DNA from: Chloroflexota bacterium
Lineage (GTDB): Bacteria; Chloroflexota; Anaerolineae; Anaerolineales; Villigracilaceae
DNA length: 43,746 bases
NCBI GenBank assembly: GCA_016208355.1
Contig: JACQYE010000138.1
Location: 1-43,746, forward strand
Direction of reading: 5' to 3'
The notes below the pieces were generated by a model. That model was not told the origin of the DNA and searched no databases. It saw only the letters and a program-made list of their open reading frames with translations. Within the stretch, counting starts at the first letter, position 1; every line of letters starts with the position of its first letter. The position numbers and the translations under genes were made by a program. Below, piece by piece: positions 2,302 to 16,722 of this stretch.

Positions 2302-4116
2302 TTATGGATATGTACAATAGGATGGCGCTCCCGCGACGACCACCCAGCGGCAAGAAGCGGCTTCACAGGAAGTTGGATCTGAATATTGGCTTGGGTTTTG
2401 GCAGGTGGTCAGTTGCGGCACATCGCACGACGGAATGTAGAGATAGAGCGATGTGCATTGAGAGCCAAAATCTTTCGGGATGCACAGCATGAGGTTGGCG
2501 TTATATCCGTATCCAGCCAGACAGACCGGATCCACTTCTGGCGGGAAGGCGCAGCAATCCAGGTCTGGGACATAGGTCGTCCCGTGCAGGCATTCGGTAT
2601 TGAAGGAGCAATTGGGATCACCATCGCAATCCTGTGGACCATCAACCGGTAGACATGCGTACGTCATGGGGGAATCCGAGAGTTTAACCAGATCAAATCC
2701 TGGATTGAAAATGCAGGCAAGCATCAACCAGAGTTGATCGATAGGGTCAGTCGGGGTCCAGATACAACCATATCCTTCCAGCCAGGCTGCATCTTCAAAC
2801 TCTCCACACATCTCTTCGGGATCAAGATCCAAGTACCTGCATTTTCCGGTGATGGTATCCAGGATATAACCAGCCGGACAAATTGGTTCTTGGTTGGACG
2901 CTGGCGGGGGGGCCAGAGGGGGGCAGATGGTCAATTCGAAGACCTGACCAACCGGTATGCCGGGACCGGAGAGGATGAGGGTGTCGGGGTGGCTACTGTC
3001 CTGGGAAATCATGACCATACCCGCGGAAGATGTGATTTCGTATGTACCTACTTCCACAGGCTCGTCAAAGACCAGATTTACATACCCATGTGGTAAGCCG
3101 GCATCATCCATGATGCAATAGCCCGTTGCGGTCACGGATGGGATGTCCGGTTCGGGCGACTGGCCGGGGTCCACGGGAGTAAAGGAAAAGGCTGGTATTT
3201 CGCAAGCCTGGGGCGGCGGGTTGCCGACCGTTTCACCAGTCAGGACACAGCGGAAACCCACCTCGGCGTGATGTTCCAACGGGTCGACTGCTGATCGTAG
3301 ATATACAGGGACAGCCTCAGCCTCGCTCTCGTAATAACTGCCGCGTACCACGCGCAGGTCGCCTTCGGCAGGCCCGGTCGGGTTCTGCGAGGGTGAAACG
3401 GGATAGTATTCATCGTCATACCAGTCGAGCACCCACTCGGAGGCGTTCCCGGCAGTATCAGCCAGTTCGAAGGGACTGGCTCCATTGAAGTAACTGCGCA
3501 CGTCAATTGGACGGACCGGCTCGAAGCAGCCGGAAAAATTGAGCAGGCTGCAATCCGGGTCTTCGTCGCCCCATGGGTGGGGATCGCCCTCCGTCCCGCG
3601 GGCGGCTTTCTCCCATTCGGCTTCGGTGGGCAGGCGGCCTTCGATCCACTCGCAGTAGGTTTCTGCCTGGTACCAGTCCACGCCCACGACTGGGGCATCA
3701 GCATGAACCGGATTGGCGTACCAGTAGGGCTTGCCGGTTTCCTGGTAGGGAGCGGTGCAGATTCCCAGGCCCACGCACAGGGCATACATGCGGTTGGTGA
3801 CCTCGGTCTGGTGGATCCAGAAGCCATCCAGAGTAACGGTGTGGGCGGGTGAGTGGTCGCTGGGTTCCGTCTCGTCTTCTCCCATCTGGAACTCACCAGG
3901 CGGGACGTAGACCACATAACTCATATCCACCCATGCGACAGTGGAACCCACCCCCGGCTCATAGTCAACCGGCGCAAAGGTCGCAACCGCAGGCTGGGTG
4001 ATGACCAATGTTGGGGTAGTTTCGGGTGTTGAAAATAATGGGCTGCAGGCGACGGCAATCAGGATCAAACCGGCTGCCGCGGTGATGTAAATCAATATAT
4101 TCAGGTTCTTTTTCAT
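2302..4116 (-). CDS. SUMF1/FGE-fold lipoprotein with Cys-rich C-terminus, paralogue 2
   Basis: 604 residues from the ATG at 4116, which has GGGGAGGG just upstream. The frame is open to 4212, but that stretch is the untranslated leader. It has a lipoprotein signal MKKNLN... with lipobox VAC-S. The SUMF1 domain is closely related to paralogue 1: 'VPPGEFQMGEDE', 'HQTEVTNRMY', 'RLPTEAEWEKAARG', 'TAGNASEWVLDWY', and end 'HHAEVGFRCVLTGE'. The site of the FGE catalytic cysteines reads 'RGSYYESEAEAVPVYLR', again without Cys. The middle segment ('EITSSAGMVMISQDSSHPDT') is nearly identical to paralogue 3 but not to paralogue 1. The C-terminus is Cys-rich and ends 'SYCTYP'. It is likely exported and lipid-anchored. 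Function unknown. Confidence 0.85.
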   Translation of the reverse strand: MKKNLNILIYITAAAGLILIAVACSPLFSTPETTPTLVITQPAVATFAPVDYEPGVGSTVAWVDMSYVVYVPPGEFQMGEDETEPSDHSPAHTVTLDGFWIHQTEVTNRMYALCVGLGICTAPYQETGKPYWYANPVHADAPVVGVDWYQAETYCEWIEGRLPTEAEWEKAARGTEGDPHPWGDEDPDCSLLNFSGCFEPVRPIDVRSYFNGASPFELADTAGNASEWVLDWYDDEYYPVSPSQNPTGPAEGDLRVVRGSYYESEAEAVPVYLRSAVDPLEHHAEVGFRCVLTGETVGNPPPQACEIPAFSFTPVDPGQSPEPDIPSVTATGYCIMDDAGLPHGYVNLVFDEPVEVGTYEITSSAGMVMISQDSSHPDTLILSGPGIPVGQVFELTICPPLAPPPASNQEPICPAGYILDTITGKCRYLDLDPEEMCGEFEDAAWLEGYGCIWTPTDPIDQLWLMLACIFNPGFDLVKLSDSPMTYACLPVDGPQDCDGDPNCSFNTECLHGTTYVPDLDCCAFPPEVDPVCLAGYGYNANLMLCIPKDFGSQCTSLYLYIPSCDVPQLTTCQNPSQYSDPTSCEAASCRWVVVAGAPSYCTYP

Positions 4117-4229
4117 GGTGATCCCTCCCCGGCGAAGGTTCGCCGAAAACACAAACAACCCGCCGAAGCGGGCTGTCTGCGATGAAATATTTATTGCGCC
4201 CATCGGCGACATTTGATGAACTTATTGTA
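4117..4229 (-). promoter_or_regulatory. Structured 5' leader and -10 of paralogue 2
   Basis: The minus strand shows a TACAAT -10 (4229-4224), hairpin CGCC-GATG-GGCG, the shared stretch CATCGCAGACAG, then the terminator-like CCCGC-TTCG-GCGGG (4172-4159) followed by TTGTTTGTGTTTT. Hairpin CGGCGA-ACCT-TCGCCG comes immediately before GGGGAGGG. It matches the leader of paralogue 1 element by element. The first hairpin keeps its pairing in paralogue 4 with different bases (AGCC/GGCT), which favours a structural role. The roughly 100 bases further upstream, to 4328, hold no gene. Confidence 0.5.
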
Positions 4230-6436: not shown

Positions 6437-8230
6437 TCATGGATATGTACAATAGGATGGCGCAACCGCGAGAGGAACCCATCTGCAGTTCGCGGCTTCG
6501 CAGGAGGTCTCGTCCGTATACTGGCTTGGATTCGTACAGGCACTGAGTGGTGGCGCTTCGCATGATGGGATCAAGAGGTAGAGCGATATGCACTGGGAAC
6601 CAGGATATTTCGGATAACATAGCAGGTTAATAGGGTCGTATTTATATCCAGCCAGGCAGACGGGGTCGATGGTCGGAGGGACCGCGCAGCAGTCCAAATC
6701 CGGGACGTAGGTCAGCCCGGGCAGGCATTCCGTGTTGAGTGAGCAATTTGGATCATCGCCGCAATCTTCCGGACCATCCACCGGCAGACATGCCAGCGTT
6801 AGAGGAGAATCCGATAGTTCGACGATCTGATATCCCGGCACGAGGGCACAAATCAATTGCAACCACAATTGATCGAGAGGATCAGTCGCGGCCCAGATGC
6901 AGCCATATCCCTCCAGCCAGGCAAATCCTTCTCCACAAGGTTCACCTGGATCCAGGTCCAAATACCGGCATTTTCCGGTGATGGTATCCAGGATATAACC
7001 GGCAGGACAAATCGGCTCTTCGGGTGGCAGCGGGGGGGCAACCAAGGCTGGGCATACGGTCAGTTCGAAGACCTGATCAATCGGTATGCCTGGGCCGGAG
7101 AGGATGAGCGTATCCGGGTGGCTGCTATCCTGGGAAATCATGACCATACCCGCGGAAGATGTGATTTCGTATGTATCTACTTCCACAGGCTCGTCGAAGA
7201 CTAGATTTACATACCCATGTGGTAGGCCGGCATCATCCATAATGCAATAGGCCGTTCCGATCACTGAAGGAATATCTGGTTCGAGCGGCTGTCCTGTGTC
7301 GACAGCTGGAGGCATTTCGCAGGCCTGGGGTGGCGGATTGCCGACCGTTTCACCGCCAAGCACACAGCGGAAACCGACCTCAGCGTGATGTTCCAGCGGG
7401 TCAACAGCTGAACGCAGGTAGACAGGCACAGCCTCGGCTTCGCTGGTGAAGTTGCTGCCGCGCACCACGCGCAGGTCGCCATCCACTGGACCGGTCGGGT
7501 TCTCTATAGGCGACACAGCATAGTATTCCTCGTCGTACCAATCAAACACCCACTCGGAGGCATTCCCGGCGGTATCTGCCAGTTCGAAGGGACTGGCGCC
7601 ATAGAAGTAACTGCGCACGTCAATTGGATTGGAAGGTTCGAGGCAGTCATCGAAGTTGAGCAGGTCGCAGGTTGGGTCTTCGTCACCCCAGGGGTAGGGA
7701 TCGCCATTCGTCCCGCGGGCGGCTTTCTCCCACTCGGCTTCGGTGGGCAGGCGGCCTTCGATCCACTCGCAATATGCCTCCGCGTTGTACCAGTCCACGC
7801 CCACGACCGGAGCGTCGGCATGGGCTGGATTGGCGTACCAGTACGGCTTGCCGGTTTCATGGTAGGGGACGGTACAGATACCCAGGTCGACACACAGGGC
7901 ATACATGCGGTTGGTAACTTCAGTCTGGTGGATCCAAAAGCCGTCCAGATAGACCGTGTGAGCCGGAGAATGGTCACTGGGTTCCGTCTCGTTCTCCCCC
8001 ATCTGGAACTCTCCAGGTGGCACATAAACCACATAACTCATGTCAACCCAGGCTACGGAGGAACCCGCCGCAGGTTCGTAGTCAACCGGCTCGAAGGTCG
8101 CAACCGGGGGCTGCGTAACGACTGAGGTGGGTGTCTCAGGCGTTGAAAATAATGGACCGCAGGCGACGGCAATCAGGATCAGACCGGCTGCCGCTGCGAT
8201 GTAAATCAAGATTTCCAGGTTCTTTTTCAT
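6437..8230 (-). CDS. SUMF1/FGE-fold lipoprotein with Cys-rich C-terminus, paralogue 3
   Basis: 597 residues from the ATG at 8230 (GGGAGGG 7 bases upstream). The longer open frame to 8401 would run into the upstream gene and has no lipoprotein signal. The signal MKKNLEI... ends in lipobox VAC-G. The SUMF1 domain matches paralogues 1 and 2 ('VPPGEFQMGENE', 'RLPTEAEWEKAARG', 'ELADTAGNASEWV', 'EVGFRCVLGGE'). The catalytic cysteine region reads 'RGSNFTSEAEAVPVYLR', without Cys. The middle segment shares a roughly 120-base, near-identical tract with paralogue 2. The C-terminal Cys-rich region ('CPAGYILDTITGKCRYLDLD') ends 'SYCTYP'. Function unknown; expected outside the cytoplasmic membrane. Confidence 0.85.
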   Translation of the reverse strand: MKKNLEILIYIAAAAGLILIAVACGPLFSTPETPTSVVTQPPVATFEPVDYEPAAGSSVAWVDMSYVVYVPPGEFQMGENETEPSDHSPAHTVYLDGFWIHQTEVTNRMYALCVDLGICTVPYHETGKPYWYANPAHADAPVVGVDWYNAEAYCEWIEGRLPTEAEWEKAARGTNGDPYPWGDEDPTCDLLNFDDCLEPSNPIDVRSYFYGASPFELADTAGNASEWVFDWYDEEYYAVSPIENPTGPVDGDLRVVRGSNFTSEAEAVPVYLRSAVDPLEHHAEVGFRCVLGGETVGNPPPQACEMPPAVDTGQPLEPDIPSVIGTAYCIMDDAGLPHGYVNLVFDEPVEVDTYEITSSAGMVMISQDSSHPDTLILSGPGIPIDQVFELTVCPALVAPPLPPEEPICPAGYILDTITGKCRYLDLDPGEPCGEGFAWLEGYGCIWAATDPLDQLWLQLICALVPGYQIVELSDSPLTLACLPVDGPEDCGDDPNCSLNTECLPGLTYVPDLDCCAVPPTIDPVCLAGYKYDPINLLCYPKYPGSQCISLYLLIPSCEAPPLSACTNPSQYTDETSCEAANCRWVPLAVAPSYCTYP

Positions 8231-8355
8231 GGTGTTCCCTCCCGGCGAAGGTTCGCCGAAAACACAGAAACAAAGTAGGGAGGCAAAGATGCTGCAGGCG
8301 AGTGTCGTATTCGAATCGCCGGTTATGAAAAATACCTCTCTACGACAAGAGTTAT
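8231..8355 (-). promoter_or_regulatory. Leader between paralogues 4 and 3
   Basis: It keeps the RBS-proximal hairpin CGGCGA-ACCT-TCGCCG and the preceding TTTCTGTGTTTT of paralogues 1 and 2, but not the CCCGC-TTCG-GCGGG hairpin. Instead the minus strand has GTAGAGAGG far upstream and CCTCCCTAC just before TTTGTTTCTGTG. These can pair with one mismatch and enclose a GGCGA/TCGCC hairpin. A terminator-like fold of different sequence thus sits in the same place. No clear promoter is visible, so read-through from paralogue 4 is possible. Confidence 0.35.
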
Positions 8356-10113
8356 CTATGGATAGGTGCAATATGGTGCAGACACAGATGGCTCGAACCA
8401 CCGGCAGTTTGCGGCTTCACATGAAGATTTGGATGAATACTGACCAGGATTTGTACACACTAATTGCGTTGGTTCTTCACAGGGAGGAATATAGACTGTC
8501 AGCGTTGTGCAAGTGTCCTCTTCATAACCTGGCATACATATACTACACCCCGGATCGAATATATATCCCGGGGGACAGGTGGGTTCATAAGAGTCCGGCG
8601 GCAGTTGGCAGCAGGCATTCTCAGGATCATATTCCATGCCCTCCAGGCAGTCGACGAGCGTATATAAATCCGGTATACCGACCGGGACACATACATCCAT
8701 CCCTTCATATTCGCTCGGGAAGTAACCAACCGGACAAATACCACAGATAGGTTTTGGGAGACAGCCGAACCCTGGAATAGCAATGGCGTCCCCGGAGCAC
8801 ATGAATACATCGCCTGGTTCATGGTCAAAGTAACAAAGATCATCGTGATTGTCGTAGTAATAACCTGGCGGGCATTCGGGGGTGGTGGGAGGAAGCAGAA
8901 CGGCAGGCAGATTGGGGCAAATGGTCAATTCGAAGGTGGTATCCAAGGGCACGTTGGTAATGGTTAATATGTCGGGGAATGCCGGATCGTGGTTGACGAT
9001 GGGGACTCCAATCGAAGAAGTGATGAAGTAATCAATCTCTTCAACCGGCTCACCAAAATCCAGGTTGACCACGCCATAGTCGGTGCCATCCTGGCTGACC
9101 ATGCAAAACGCATTGACAATTGGATCCGGCGACTCTGAGACTACTGGCGTTGGCTGGTCGAGCGGGGGGATGTACATGGCCTGCACTTCACAGGCGGGTG
9201 GCGGAGGATCGATAATCGTTTCCCCAGTGAGGATGCAGCGAAATCCGAGGTCGGCAGTATGTTTTTCAGGCTTCAGGTCTATGCGCAGGTAAATAAGTAA
9301 TTCTTCCAACGGTGTCAGGTAGCTTGAGCCACGTACCACGCGCGTATCGCCCGTGGAAGGCCCGGTCGGGTTGGAGGTCGGGGACTGAGCGTAGTACTCG
9401 GCATCGTACCGGTCGAGTACCCACTCATACACATTGCCTGCCGTATCCGCAAGTTCGTAGAAACTGGCTCCCAGCAGGTAGGAGCGGACGTGCTGAGGTC
9501 CGTCGGGGTCGAAACAACCCTCGAAGTTGAGCAGGTTGCAGGTCGGCTCGTCTTCGCCCCAGGGATAAGGATCCCCTTCATCGCCACGGGCTGCTTTTTC
9601 CCATTCGGCCTCCGTGGGGAGGCGGCCTTCGATCCACTCGCAGTATGTCTCTGCCTGATACCAGTCCACCCCAACCACAGGGTCGCTGGCGTAGGAAGCG
9701 AGACTAAACCAGTAGGGTACGCCGTTTTCGACTGCCGGAGGGGTACAGACGCCAAGAGCAACACATTGGGCGTACATCCGGTTGGTGACTTCGGTCTGGT
9801 GGATCCAGAACCCGTCCAAGGTGATGGTATGAGCGGGATTGTGATCACTTGGTTCCGCCTTGTCTTGCCCCATGATAAAATCACCCGGCGGGACATAGAC
9901 AACAAAACTGTTGTCTGTCCACAAAATTGCCGTTCCAGCCTCCGGTTGGGGGATATCAATGTCCAGTTCCTGGTTTTGGATGGCGGGCACATCCGTCTCA
10001 ACGATTTCGGGTGTCCCGGTGGCAGGTTGCCCAAAGTCCAGATTGCATCCCACCAGGAAGCAAAGCAGGATGATACAAAGCCCTTTTCCGATGTGTTTCA
10101 TAGATGTTTTCAT
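8356..10113 (-). CDS. SUMF1/FGE-fold lipoprotein with Cys-rich C-terminus, diverged paralogue 4
   Basis: 585 residues. Start chosen at 10113 (GGGGAGGG, 5-base spacing); MKTSMKH follows, then the lipobox LVGC. The SUMF1 domain is complete: 'VPPGDFIMGQDK', 'HQTEVTNRMYAQC', 'RLPTEAEWEKAARG', 'ELADTAGNVYEWVLDRY', 'DLGFRCILTGE'. It is clearly more distant from the other three copies. The site of the FGE cysteines reads 'RGSSYLTPLEELLIYLR', without Cys. The middle beta segment and Cys-rich tail have the same plan ('CPPGYYYDNHDDLCY', 'CTNPGQYSSKSSCEAANCRW', end 'YCTYP'). It is the first gene of the minus-strand array and possibly the ancestral copy. Function unknown. Confidence 0.83.
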   Translation of the reverse strand: MKTSMKHIGKGLCIILLCFLVGCNLDFGQPATGTPEIVETDVPAIQNQELDIDIPQPEAGTAILWTDNSFVVYVPPGDFIMGQDKAEPSDHNPAHTITLDGFWIHQTEVTNRMYAQCVALGVCTPPAVENGVPYWFSLASYASDPVVGVDWYQAETYCEWIEGRLPTEAEWEKAARGDEGDPYPWGEDEPTCNLLNFEGCFDPDGPQHVRSYLLGASFYELADTAGNVYEWVLDRYDAEYYAQSPTSNPTGPSTGDTRVVRGSSYLTPLEELLIYLRIDLKPEKHTADLGFRCILTGETIIDPPPPACEVQAMYIPPLDQPTPVVSESPDPIVNAFCMVSQDGTDYGVVNLDFGEPVEEIDYFITSSIGVPIVNHDPAFPDILTITNVPLDTTFELTICPNLPAVLLPPTTPECPPGYYYDNHDDLCYFDHEPGDVFMCSGDAIAIPGFGCLPKPICGICPVGYFPSEYEGMDVCVPVGIPDLYTLVDCLEGMEYDPENACCQLPPDSYEPTCPPGYIFDPGCSICMPGYEEDTCTTLTVYIPPCEEPTQLVCTNPGQYSSKSSCEAANCRWFEPSVSAPYCTYP

Positions 10114-10218
10114 TCGACCCTCCCCGAAATAAAACAACCCCAGTGCGTGGGGCTGTTGGCAGGATGAAAAATAATGCGAGCCCTTCGGCTACATTACAAA
10201 TTTGATAAGTTTATTATA
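10114..10218 (-). promoter_or_regulatory. -10 and structured leader of paralogue 4
   Basis: TATAAT (10218-10213, preceded by TTG) is followed by AAAC as in paralogue 1. Then come hairpin AGCC-GAAG-GGCT, CATCCTGCCAACAG, and a terminator-like hairpin CCCCA-N5-TGGGG (10152-10138) followed by TTGTTTTATTT and GGGGAGGG. Both hairpins are kept but with different bases from paralogues 1 and 2. The third, RBS-proximal hairpin is missing here. The -35 region is weak. Confidence 0.5.
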
Positions 10219-10260
10219 CAACGATAATAAAAAACAACCATCCCCCGCCGGTCATAAGAA

Positions 10261-10851
10261 CTATTTCTGGAGGCATGGGAGGATACCCATAATCGCGGCA
10301 TTTGGTTCAGACAAGGTCAGCGCCAGCACTGGGACGGTGTCAACAGTGTAAACATCGGAGACGTTGCCCATCTTCCAATGACGCGTCAGGATGCCAACCG
10401 TGTTGACATCTCCGGCGATGGCCTGCGCCATCTCTTCGGGATCTGGAGCCAGTCGCGCCAGCGAAGTGACCGGCGCGCCGCCGAGAGCGGTCTGCTCGAA
10501 GATCTGCTGGACGTCTTCTCCCGCGGCGAAGACCCAGACCTGCACTTTGGCATCGTCGCCATTGACTTCCTGCCAGTTCTGGATTGAGCCGGTGAACAAG
10601 CCGAGCACTTCGTCGGCGGTCAGGCTGTTGATCGGGCTCTGTGGGTTAACAATGACCAGTATTTCCTCTGTATCTATTTGGTAAGCCGGGGAGGTGATAT
10701 TTGCGTCACCAATGCGGAGAGCCAGGTCGGTGCTGGAAAGATCGAGATAGTCGGCGGCGCGCAGTTCGGCGCTGACGATGTTCTCGCCAGCGCAGTCGTA
10801 CACGTCTGCCAGCCAGGGCTGGGCGGCGGAGGTGTACTGGACGGTAGTTAA
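10261..10851 (-). pseudogene. Phosphate-type periplasmic binding protein, 5'-truncated remnant
   Basis: The frame is open from 10851 to the stop at 10261 (about 196 codons). It reads as the C-terminal two thirds of a PstS-like PBP domain: 'VQYTSAAQPWLADVYDC', 'NPQSPINSLTADEVLGLFTG', 'IQNWQEVNG', 'VWVFAAGEDVQQIFE'. Such proteins begin with a signal peptide and lipobox directly before the 'VQYTSAA' strand. Here that part is replaced by the coding sequence of uppP in another frame, and a TGA lies just upstream. The first in-frame ATG/GTG codons are inside the domain and give no export signal, so a working binding protein is unlikely. It is read as one half of a deletion junction. Confidence 0.7.
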
Positions 10852-11593
10852 TCAGCCACTTGACCGCCAACCAGCCAATCACAGCAGCGGTCACGAAACC
10901 AACTGCCAGCGGCAAGAGGAAACTTGCCAGGTCGGGCATTTTGATCACATCCAGCATCTCGTAGCCGCCTGCCGCCAGCATGACCGGGATGGACATGAGG
11001 AAGGCGAAACGCGCCGCCGATTTCCGGTCGAGGCCGCGGAACATACCGGCGGAGATGGTTGTGCCGGAGCGGGAGGCGCCCGGGAATACGGCGATGACCT
11101 GGAAGAGGCCGACGATGAGCGCGTCCAGCCAGGTCATCGAGTCTAGGCCGCGGGATTTCTTCGTCAACCACTCGGCCATGGTCAGCAGGAGGGCGGCAGT
11201 AAAGAGACGGATGGACGCCTCCAGCAGGGGAGTCTTGAACAGGGCTTCCACCGCGTCCTTGAGCAGGTAGCCGGCGAGCAGCGCGGGGACGGTGGCGATG
11301 AGGATGTACCAGCCCAGGCGTGCTTCCGTGTCAAGTCTTCCCGTGTTACGCTTGATTAGTAGGGGAATACTGGCAAGTGTGGCCCGGACGATTTTCCACA
11401 AGTCTTTCCAGAAGAAGATAAACAGCGAGACGATGGTCCCCAGCTGGACGATAACCAGGAACGAGAACATGGCATCGCCCGCGGGGAGGCCGAGCAGTTG
11501 CTGGCCGATGAGCAGGTGGGCGGTGGATGAGACGGGGATGAATTCAGTCAGGCCTTGGATGAGGCCGAGGATGAAGGAGTGAAAGAGGGTCAT
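10706..11593 (-). CDS. uppP: Undecaprenyl-diphosphatase, C-terminus replaced by out-of-frame sequence
   Basis: Dephosphorylates undecaprenyl pyrophosphate at the membrane to recycle the lipid carrier of cell-wall synthesis. Family motifs are present: 'GLIQGLTEFIPVSSTAHL' near the N-terminus with the Glu and Ser residues of the active site, and 'PGASRSGTTI' in the middle, within several hydrophobic helices. Homology holds for about 248 residues up to 'GWLAVKWLINY'. There the usual last transmembrane helix is missing, and the frame runs on through 47 basic residues ('RRPALAGRRVRLRWREHR') that are the binding-protein sequence read out of frame. The enzyme core is intact, but the last helix is lost. 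The ATG is GC-neighboured by TTAACC repeats. Confidence 0.85.
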   Translation of the reverse strand: MTLFHSFILGLIQGLTEFIPVSSTAHLLIGQQLLGLPAGDAMFSFLVIVQLGTIVSLFIFFWKDLWKIVRATLASIPLLIKRNTGRLDTEARLGWYILIATVPALLAGYLLKDAVEALFKTPLLEASIRLFTAALLLTMAEWLTKKSRGLDSMTWLDALIVGLFQVIAVFPGASRSGTTISAGMFRGLDRKSAARFAFLMSIPVMLAAGGYEMLDVIKMPDLASFLLPLAVGFVTAAVIGWLAVKWLINYRPVHLRRPALAGRRVRLRWREHRQRRTARRRLSRSFQHRPGSPHW

Positions 11594-11609
11594 GGTTAAT
11601 GGTTAATCC
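11592..11609 (+). repeat. Left arm of inverted TTAACCAT repeat flanking the four-helix-bundle gene
   Basis: ATGGTTAATGGTTAATCC on the plus strand. It covers the uppP start codon and the stop codon of the neighbouring four-helix-bundle gene. ATGGTTAATGG is the exact reverse complement of the outer end of the right arm at 12065-12089. Confidence 0.6.
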
Positions 11610-12055
11610 TGTTCAGTGGAATCTTCGATTAGATAAGGTGCTTGTATTTCGTGAACAACATGATTTGCCCCCGGTTCATTGATGCCAGTTTTGGCTTTCT
11701 TGAGATAACTGATCCATCCGCCAATGGAACGGGCAACAGATTCCGCCTCGCGGGTTGTGCTTGTATAGATTTCGTTGTTGATAAATCCCAGTTCTTTTGC
11801 CAAACAAAGATGGCTCTGCGCTTCGGTCAATGAACCGCGTGCGATGTAACAAAACCGAACATTATCTTGAAAGTAGAACCGTCCATGCCCTTCTGCGATA
11901 TTCGCCGGGACACTGGATGCGGCGCGCTTGAGTTGGTCTGCCAGATTGTATTTTTCGCTGGCGGGCAATAGTGGAACGATTTTTGTGTAAATCGTTATGG
12001 CAAAACCGCGCGCCAATCTCCACACTTCCAACTGGTCAAGGTTCATCACGGTCAT
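11603..12055 (-). CDS. Four-helix-bundle protein of the S23 / 23S rRNA intervening-sequence family
   Basis: 150 residues. The start at 12055 has GGAG 7 bases upstream. The pattern 'LEVWRLARGFAITIYTKI', 'YNLADQLKRAASSVPANIAE', 'GSLTEAQSHLCLAKELGFI' and 'SVARSIGGWISYLKK' is typical of the four-helix-bundle family (TIGR02436). That family is found in 23S rRNA intervening sequences, as free-standing genes, and as the Avd partner of diversity-generating retroelements. Its molecular role is poorly known; basic pentamers binding nucleic acid are described for relatives. This copy has an extra acidic C-terminal tail of about 25 residues. No rRNA or reverse transcriptase is nearby. It sits between uppP and tgt with short inverted repeats at both ends. 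Confidence 0.85.
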   Translation of the reverse strand: MTVMNLDQLEVWRLARGFAITIYTKIVPLLPASEKYNLADQLKRAASSVPANIAEGHGRFYFQDNVRFCYIARGSLTEAQSHLCLAKELGFINNEIYTSTTREAESVARSIGGWISYLKKAKTGINEPGANHVVHEIQAPYLIEDSTEQD

Positions 12056-12064
12056 ATCCCAACT

Positions 12065-14606
<2,542 letters not shown>

Positions 14607-14609
14607 CTA

Positions 14610-15410
14610 ATGGAAAACAGAGAACTGAATCGTTATGCCAAAATTCTGGAAGCAATCTTTTTGAAGCGATTCAAGAAAGGCGTCGCTGAAATTGATTTCG
14701 AGCGAGCTGAGTTCGGCAAGATTGCAGAAGAGTTGGGAATTATCTTGCCAAAAAATCTGGGCGATGTGCTGTATTCCTTTCGATATCGGACTCTCCTGCC
14801 CAGGTCCATCACATCCAAAGCGCCAAAGGGCTATGAATGGATTATCCGACCTGCAGGCAAAGGGAAATATAAACTTGTGATTGCCAAGCAATCAATCATC
14901 GCGCCGTCCAATGTCTTGGTTGAAACTAAAATTCCCGATGCTACGCCGGGTGTGATCGCCGCGTATTCCATGAACGATGAGCAATCCCTTTTGGCAAGGC
15001 TTCGCTATAACCGCTTGGTGGATATTTTCACCGGGTTGACTTGTTATTCCCTACAAAATCATCTGCGAACAACCCTGCGCAATGGCTCGCAAGTCGAAAC
15101 CGACGAAATTTACATCGGATTGGATAAACGCGGTGCTCATTATGTTTTGCCAGTTCAAGCAAAAGGCGGCAAAGACAGGATTGGCGTTGTTCAAATCGAG
15201 CAGGATTTTGAGATATGCAGTCTCAAGTTTCCCCGCTTGATCTGCCGGGCGATCGCGGCGCAATTTGTGGAAGATAATCTCATTGCGCTCTTTGAATTCG
15301 AGCAGTCGAAGGATGGGATCAAAGTCGCATCCGAAAAACATTATCGACTTGTAAGACCGGATGAATTATCCCCCGAGGAACTTCAGAGTTATTCTGCTCG
15401 ATTATCTTGA
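14610..15410 (+). CDS. Putative type II restriction endonuclease (PD-(D/E)XK-like)
   Basis: 266 residues, starting three bases after the methyltransferase stop. The centre has 'VETDEIYIGLD' (about 162-172) and 'YVLPVQAKGGKD' (about 178-189). An acidic residue followed by Q-A-K is a frequent variant of the PD-(D/E)XK nuclease core, with Gln or Glu before the catalytic Lys 185. The N-terminal 100 residues contain a helical part and a possible winged-helix-like strand region ('GYEWIIRPAGKGKYKLVIAK'). The pairing with an SPPY methyltransferase supports a restriction enzyme. Recognition site and cleavage pattern are unknown. A weaker alternative is a DNA-repair nuclease of the same fold. Confidence 0.72.
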   Translation: MENRELNRYAKILEAIFLKRFKKGVAEIDFERAEFGKIAEELGIILPKNLGDVLYSFRYRTLLPRSITSKAPKGYEWIIRPAGKGKYKLVIAKQSIIAPSNVLVETKIPDATPGVIAAYSMNDEQSLLARLRYNRLVDIFTGLTCYSLQNHLRTTLRNGSQVETDEIYIGLDKRGAHYVLPVQAKGGKDRIGVVQIEQDFEICSLKFPRLICRAIAAQFVEDNLIALFEFEQSKDGIKVASEKHYRLVRPDELSPEELQSYSARLS

Positions 15411-15466: not shown

Positions 15467-16722
15467 TTACTCGTTATACTCCTTCTCCTCCGGATACTCC
15501 ACCCCGCGCGCATCTGACTCCACGTCGCGGGCGGTGGATTCCGCCGCCAGGAACTCGCGGAAATATTCGTGCTGGATGACCAGGTCCATGATCTCGTTCG
15601 TGCCGGTCCAGATGGTGATGAGACGCACGTCGCGCAGCAGTCGCTCGACCGGGAAGATGTCGGTGTAGCCGATGCCGCCCAAAATCTGCATGGCGTGGTT
15701 GACGACCGTCCAGGCGGTCTCGGTGGAGAACTTCTTGGCCTCCGAGACCAGCCGCCGGACGCGGTCTGGATGTTCTCCGGCGTCCACCGCCCGGCAGACG
15801 GAGTAGTCGAGGGCGCGGGCGGCGTCCAGCAGCGTCACGCTCTCGGCGACCTTGAAACTGACCCCCTCGAACTGGCGGATCTTCTGCCCGAAGGCCTTGC
15901 GCCGGTCGGCGTAACGGGCAGCGATCTCGATCGCAGCGCGTCCCATGCCGACCGCGCCGCAGGCGGAGGTCATCCGCTCCGGGACCATCATGCGGTGGAA
16001 GACTTTCGTCCCGTTGCCGATGCCGGCCTTGCCGCCGAGCACGTTCTGGACCGGGATCGGGGCGTCGTGGAAGACCAGCCTCCCGGTCCCGCCGCGCCGC
16101 CGCGCGTGCCCATCAGCCCATAGACGTGCTCCACGCTGACGCCCTCGCCGCGCTCCACCAGGAAGGCAGTCATAGCTTTCTTCGGGTCGTCCATCCCCTC
16201 GACTTTGGCGTAGACCAGCAGCAGGTCCGCGCCTTCGGCGCCGACGACGAAACGCTTCTGGCCGTTGATGTAGAATATATCTCCCTCGCGGCGGGCGCGG
16301 GTGGTGGCCGCGAAAAAGTCTGAGCCGCCGCGCGGTTCGGTCAGCCCTTCGGCAACGGTCATCTTGCCGCGCAGCACCGGTTTGAGATATTTCTCCTTTT
16401 GCTCCTGGCTGCCAAACTCGTGGATCGCTTCGCCAACGATGGAGACCAGCGAGTAGAGGCAGGCCAGCGAGGTGCCGAGCGTCCCGGCTTCCTCCAGCGC
16501 GACCAGTTCCGAGGTCCAGGGCAGGCTGCGCCCGCCCCACTTCTTGTCGAAGCGCAGGCCGAGCAGGTTGCGGCGCGCCGCCTCCTGCAAATATTCACGC
16601 GGATAGGTCACTTTGTCCGCGTCCATGTCCAGCAGCAACTGGCGCGGCACCCGGCGGACGAAGTCCTGCATTTCGAGGCGCAGGGCTTTTTCTTCGGAGG
16701 TCAAGAGAGATTCGATGGACAT
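15467..16722 (-). pseudogene. Acyl-CoA dehydrogenase, frameshifted by an 8-bp tandem duplication
   Basis: It would oxidise acyl-CoA to enoyl-CoA with FAD. From the ATG at 16722 (GGAGG, 5-base spacing) the N-terminal and middle domains read normally: '[12 protein letters not shown]', '[16 protein letters not shown]', '[20 protein letters not shown]', up to 'LMGTRGG'. After that the homology moves to another frame: '[19 protein letters not shown]', '[17 protein letters not shown]', '[21 protein letters not shown]', '[17 protein letters not shown]'. The shift falls on two exact copies of CGCGGCGG (minus strand). Removing one copy restores a single 415-residue frame with '[12 protein letters not shown]'. 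It is the last gene of a likely minus-strand operon behind the SDR gene (21-base gap). Real mutation versus assembly error cannot be decided here. Confidence 0.85.
16089..16104 (-). repeat. Exact 8-bp tandem duplication inside the acyl-CoA dehydrogenase gene
   Basis: The plus strand has CCGCCGCG twice in a row (16089-16096 and 16097-16104). The 8-base insertion accounts for the frameshift: gene length from start to stop is 1256 bases, and 1248 (416 codons) without one copy. Confidence 0.85.

Follow-up and report, generated by a model that had tools for sequence, protein, structure and literature searches.

A joint between truncated uppP and PstS-type binding-protein genes in a draft Chloroflexota genome, consistent with a simple deletion

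Two truncated genes meet at one point

The stretch of DNA analysed (43,746 nucleotides, hereafter the window) makes up contig C105 in a bin of 205 contigs and 2.76 Mb that is 90.6% complete. On its minus strand, the beginning of an uppP gene runs directly into the mature part of a gene for a PstS-type periplasmic binding protein (PBP). The features around the joint are as follows.

10261..10842, minus strand: domain of a PstS-type periplasmic binding protein, lacking signal peptide, lipobox and a start codon of its own (PF12849, AF2 model, Foldseek)
10706..10843, minus strand: out-of-frame, arginine-rich tail of the uppP ORF, 45 residues plus stop codon, without a hydrophobic helix
10843..10844, no strand: deletion junction (blastn to locus L003 on G008:C253, and flank comparison)
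10844..11593, minus strand: UppP/BacA codons 1-250, without the last transmembrane helix (PF02673 and TIGR00753)
11603..12055, minus strand: 23S rRNA-intervening-sequence protein gene (PF05635), between tgt and uppP
12082..13269, minus strand: tgt (PF01702), the conserved upstream neighbour of uppP, which it adjoins in same-genus relatives

The uppP ORF (11593-10706, minus strand) encodes 295 aa. Pfam BacA (PF02673) matched residues 7-250 over profile positions 2-238 of 257 with 242.3 bits (cut-off 33.4), and TIGR00753 scored 219.5 bits (cut-off 217.5); ten or so narrower NCBIfam UppP models stayed below cut-off for the window ORF and the full-length G008 protein alike. Codons 1-250 aligned without gaps to those of G008, a genome of the same genus and the closest by uppP, and contained no stop codon. 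Judging from motifs, both UppP active-site regions presumably lie within these codons. The first-pass annotation had stated that UppP homology stops without the final helix, and this was borne out by the early end of the BacA profile match and by a tail that is not hydrophobic: its best 19-residue Kyte-Doolittle mean was -0.83, versus 2.15 to 2.29 in the native tails of three relatives. The 45 tail residues had no Pfam match at E 0.01. Two reports on E. coli UppP structures describe six spanning helices and two re-entrant pairs, with both termini placed on the periplasmic side (PMC5852022, PMC5861054). Compared with known UppP/BacA proteins, the window product has lost the last helix (helix 10 in the E. 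coli structures) and carries the out-of-frame residues instead, from which we infer that activity would be lost or strongly reduced.

The PBP frame, +1 relative to the uppP frame, is open from 10851 to 10261 (minus strand), C-terminus included. PF12849 (PBP_like_2) scored 26.7 bits against the frame at 10851-10264, just under the cut-off of 27, and TIGR02136 scored 47.6 bits, below its cut-off of 206.6; the intact PBPs of relatives pass PF12849 (37.6 bits in G002, 34.4 bits at L068). The best of five AF2 models had a mean pLDDT of 83.4 (range of the five, 83.4 to 45.4). Foldseek matched the model to 9l8j_B and 1twy_B (TMq 0.79) and likewise to 4exl, and its rows 1-16 were all phosphate-binding-type proteins. 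The predicted structure has the phosphate-binding-protein fold, and profile and model both match proteins of this type, phosphate being the putative ligand. The fold, as predicted, is common to PstS-type phosphate-binding proteins, from which the window PBP differs in falling under the Pfam and NCBIfam cut-offs and in being linked to uppP instead of pst-type genes. No export signal or lipobox was found in the window PBP, and the first ATG, GTG or TTG past the upstream stop in its frame is a GTG at 10803, inside the mature domain. In the relatives inspected, the PBP begins with a hydrophobic stretch followed by Cys, as read by eye without a signal-peptide program. As it has neither a signal peptide nor a proper start, the PBP half is expected to yield no exported product, and both genes of the window are probably broken.

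Read along the minus strand, the last codon with UppP homology is number 250, at 10844, and PstS-like sequence takes over from 10842. The domain does start in another frame, as had been noted; the junction, placed earlier at 10845-10852, lies a base or two away, at 10843-10844. Aligned to G008:C253 by blastn, the window gave two segments that both break at base 10843 and are separated by 192 bp of G008; identity to G008 was 85% on the uppP side up to 10843 and 73% from 10843 onward. In G008, uppP and PBP are intact and adjacent, and the 192 bp take in nearly all of the last 26 uppP codons, and with them the last membrane helix, then the stop codon, a short spacer and the beginning of the lipoprotein, signal included. 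This comparison with a close relative, proposed in the first-pass annotation, agrees with its view that the uppP 3′ end and the PBP signal peptide were removed together. The deletion ends have 1 bp in common with the G008 right flank; were the missing right flank like that of L068, this would rise to at most 3 bp. A clean gap with a short shared end sequence is the pattern of a short-homology deletion. No repeats were found in 10600-11100, the 192-bp stretch of G008 gave chance-level matches alone elsewhere in the bin (best E 0.25, 19 bp), and viral contigs contained no exact match to the joint. A pseudogene pair formed by short-homology deletion would likewise have both genes cut at one point with such short common ends, and the window is nothing special in this respect, except that a second uppP was not found in its bin.

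Gene order in relatives and the size of the missing DNA

Genes of both flanks of the joint occur in the window's order in G008:C253 and G005:C125, and genes farther from the joint also keep the order seen in relatives. The 23S rRNA-intervening-sequence protein gene has a 54% match at the equivalent position in G004 (L095). Among 14 named records encoding UppP relatives, 12 are labelled Anaerolineae, Chloroflexi or Herpetosiphon MAGs. Within 10100-13400, promoter-like sites were at the level of shuffled sequence, and terminator-like sites numbered 5 versus 2.9 +/- 1.7 after shuffling. Four related large ORFs lie near one another on the minus strand (289-2151, 2302-4212, 6437-8401 and 8356-10137); all match one region of G005, and both of the ORFs scanned contain an FGE-sulfatase domain.

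A PBP match lay within 2.6 kb of uppP on one contig in 46 of the 58 uppP-bearing genomes (window included) of a 61-genome sample, a count tabulated by hand in which some more distant PBP matches are weak and G039 has a better match elsewhere. In several of the 12 unlinked uppP-bearing genomes, uppP sits where a contig ends. A single 540-aa open frame of G058 (L107, 959-2578), which includes ambiguous bases, fuses UppP, last helix included, in frame to a PstS-type binding domain; its BacA match is near-complete and its PBP_like_2 match lies above cut-off. That uppP and PBP are neighbours in so many genomes and fused in one suggests a shared periplasmic task. We found no literature on point concerning such a gene neighbourhood or fusion.

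The spacing between the two genes varies. An M20 peptidase orthologue occurs in 7 of the 10 other same-genus genomes (G002, used as the query, G003, G004, G005, G007, G009 and G010; 70-81% to the G002 query), and in 6 of the 10 it lies between uppP and PBP on one contig. In G003, M20 and PBP share a contig and uppP is on another. In G006 and G008, uppP and PBP are close together and no M20 match exceeds 29%; in G001, the contig ends directly after uppP. No M20 orthologue was found in the window's bin, where the best match was 29% over most of the protein, plus one short match of 36%. Across the 46 linked genomes, the uppP-to-PBP gap was <600 nt in 30 and at least 1259 nt in 16, and arrangements with short and long gaps are both present beyond the genus. 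Depending on which relative the earlier state resembled, the deletion may have taken about 0.2 kb (if like G008) or about 1.3 kb (if like G002). The larger size comes into question because M20 separates the two genes in six of the ten relatives and the search of the bin turned up no orthologue.

Rarity, selection and ancestry of the two sides

In a family sample of 110 genomes, 101 had a uppP match, and 99 of these, with rows read by eye, have a copy reaching at least profile position 252. The two exceptions are the window (profile end 238) and G128, whose sole match is a fragment that starts at the first base of a contig and includes the C-terminal end. G009 carries, beside a full uppP, a second partial match (profile 1-166) that ends 2 bp before the contig end. 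The window's uppP is the only one cut short inside a contig among the 110 genomes, so a real uppP loss of this kind would be rare. The last helix was present in the UppP C-termini of relatives at 40 of 41 loci in one set, in which two pairs are identical contigs counted twice, and at 20 of 20 in another; the exception, L028, had no motif match, and its genome (G018) reaches profile position 256. We found no literature on point concerning uppP pseudogenes in Anaerolineae.

Median pn/ps in pairs with the window was 0.30 for uppP (14 pairs) and 0.44 for PBP (11 pairs), and among relatives 0.33 (91 pairs) and 0.55 (55 pairs), respectively. No relaxed selection was seen in either gene of the window by this pairwise measure, which is not a branch test. 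As there is no rise in pn/ps, the event would be either very young or an assembly error.

By identity, the window's uppP is nearest to G008 and its PBP to G003, and the uppP protein tree set the window apart from the G003 group; a two-organism chimera was suspected from these observations. Nucleotide trees were compared on codon alignments of 12-15 rows for PBP, tgt and uppP, with AU tests. The window grouped with the G002/G003 group in the PBP tree (99/98) and, weakly, in the tgt tree (77/83), and a window+G008 clade was rejected in both (AU p 0.004 and 0.002). The uppP tree did not resolve the window's surroundings (61/88) and did not reject window+G008 (AU p 0.38). PBP and tgt lie on opposite sides of the joint and each rejects window+G008, which separates the window from G008 on either side. 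For PBP, the test did not reject a clade of window+G003+G005+G010+G007 (p 0.196), whereas for uppP (1e-53) and tgt (1e-7) it did. This contrast is not clean, because the set omits G001, G002, G004 and G009, which sit among its members in the uppP and tgt trees and preclude the clade there. Our overall reading is a single ancestry in which the window branches immediately outside the G002/G003 group, a placement compatible with all three trees. The conserved gene order, the shared cut point and the clean 192-bp gap, without any firm break in the phylogeny, clearly support a simple deletion when the window is compared with its relatives, and the earlier proposal that one such event cut both genes at the same point stands in that sense.

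A second broken gene lies 5 kb from the joint: an acyl-CoA dehydrogenase gene (15467-16722, minus strand) is split by a frameshift near 16087-16099, where the window has a 5-bp tandem duplication compared with the intact G002 gene. In a scan for frame breaks using 56 ORFs of at least 150 aa from four relatives, redundant between genomes and with window matches at >50% identity, the flagged rows numbered three and pointed to two places in the window: the acyl-CoA dehydrogenase gene, and the uppP/PBP joint, detected via an out-of-frame G008 ORF. The second break could be a sign of local assembly trouble. Type II methyltransferase and restriction enzyme genes (PADLOC) lie between tgt and the acyl-CoA dehydrogenase gene at 13248-15410 (plus strand); tgt and acyl-CoA dehydrogenase are closer to each other in G002 than in the window.

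Origin of the joint and its meaning

We lean slightly, with a probability of roughly 0.53, to a recent simple deletion by illegitimate (short-homology) joining that is present in cells. Such joining would have removed the uppP 3′ end, the intergenic DNA, and the start and signal peptide of the PstS-type lipoprotein gene. The truncated UppP would be inactive or barely active, the binding protein would no longer be made as an exported lipoprotein, and PAP2 phosphatases would take over undecaprenyl-pyrophosphate recycling. A second uppP copy, one of two outcomes that the first-pass annotation expected of a real deletion, was not found in the 90.6% complete bin, in which the window's was the one match; pst-type genes, also to be looked for, were found. 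Contig C162 of the bin (G000; L127-L129) has three PstB-like ATPase matches, of which two exceed the curated cut-off and one has a PstS-like match nearby, so the window PBP locus is not the genome's pst operon. Two PAP2 matches above cut-off are present in the bin, the first with an unbroken reading frame and the other truncated where its contig begins, and both proteins are far below the cut-offs of undecaprenyl-diphosphatase models. Three of the 61 genomes (G026, G031 and G045) have no uppP match and all have PAP2 matches, absence from a draft bin being weak evidence. E. coli survives bacA loss while PAP2 enzymes remain, and the triple deletion is lethal (PMC12401180); in B. subtilis, uppP and bcrC are jointly essential (PMC5723303). 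PAP2 enzymes could cover this recycling in the window organism as well.

Somewhat short of even odds is an assembly artefact: uppP and the lipoprotein gene would both be intact in the organism, with M20 present or absent, and 0.2-1.3 kb would have been passed over in assembly, a chimeric read or gap closing being examples of how. The draft state of the bin, the constraint still apparent in uppP and PBP, the near-universal full-length uppP in the family and the frame break 5 kb away all fit such an error; the overlap of just 1-3 bp at the joint, the zero N bases in the window, the bin's lack of any leftover of the G008 stretch or of an M20 orthologue, and the confinement of flagged rows to two loci speak against it. 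With so little sequence in common at the joint and no repeats within 500 bp, a repeat-driven assembly-graph error is not an obvious cause, and nothing on point was found in the literature on misassembly of this type. A contig joining two organisms at a homologous locus would account for the discordant nearest relatives, for the rejection of window+G008 by PBP and not by uppP, and for the five-member set tolerated by PBP alone; it is nevertheless very improbable, as tgt, on the uppP side, also rejects window+G008, the four omitted genomes blur the five-member contrast, the codon trees allow one placement, and the distant gene order is that of relatives. Least credible of all is a functional UppP-binding-protein fusion made by +1 frameshifting at the joint. 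The G058 fusion and purifying selection on both halves are in its favour. Against it, the topology given in the structural reports (PMC5852022, PMC5861054) has the last helix carry the C-terminus to the periplasmic side, and with that helix missing from the window a fused binding domain would be predicted to stay cytoplasmic.

Viewed as a deletion, the joint is ordinary, one damaged pair of genes in a draft assembly; should it be real, a widely kept cell-wall recycling enzyme would have been lost in an environmental lineage. A wider reading, which we consider speculative and rather unlikely, is that UppP and the PstS-type lipoprotein make up a two-part periplasmic module, conserved in this bacterial order and sometimes fused into a single protein, in which the lipoprotein might, for example, capture or sense phosphate released by UppP; the window would then represent a natural lineage in which one deletion took both parts and recycling passed to PAP2. 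Of more use as a lead than the deletion is the conserved uppP-PBP linkage: together with its single natural fusion, it hints that UppP has a partner in the periplasm.
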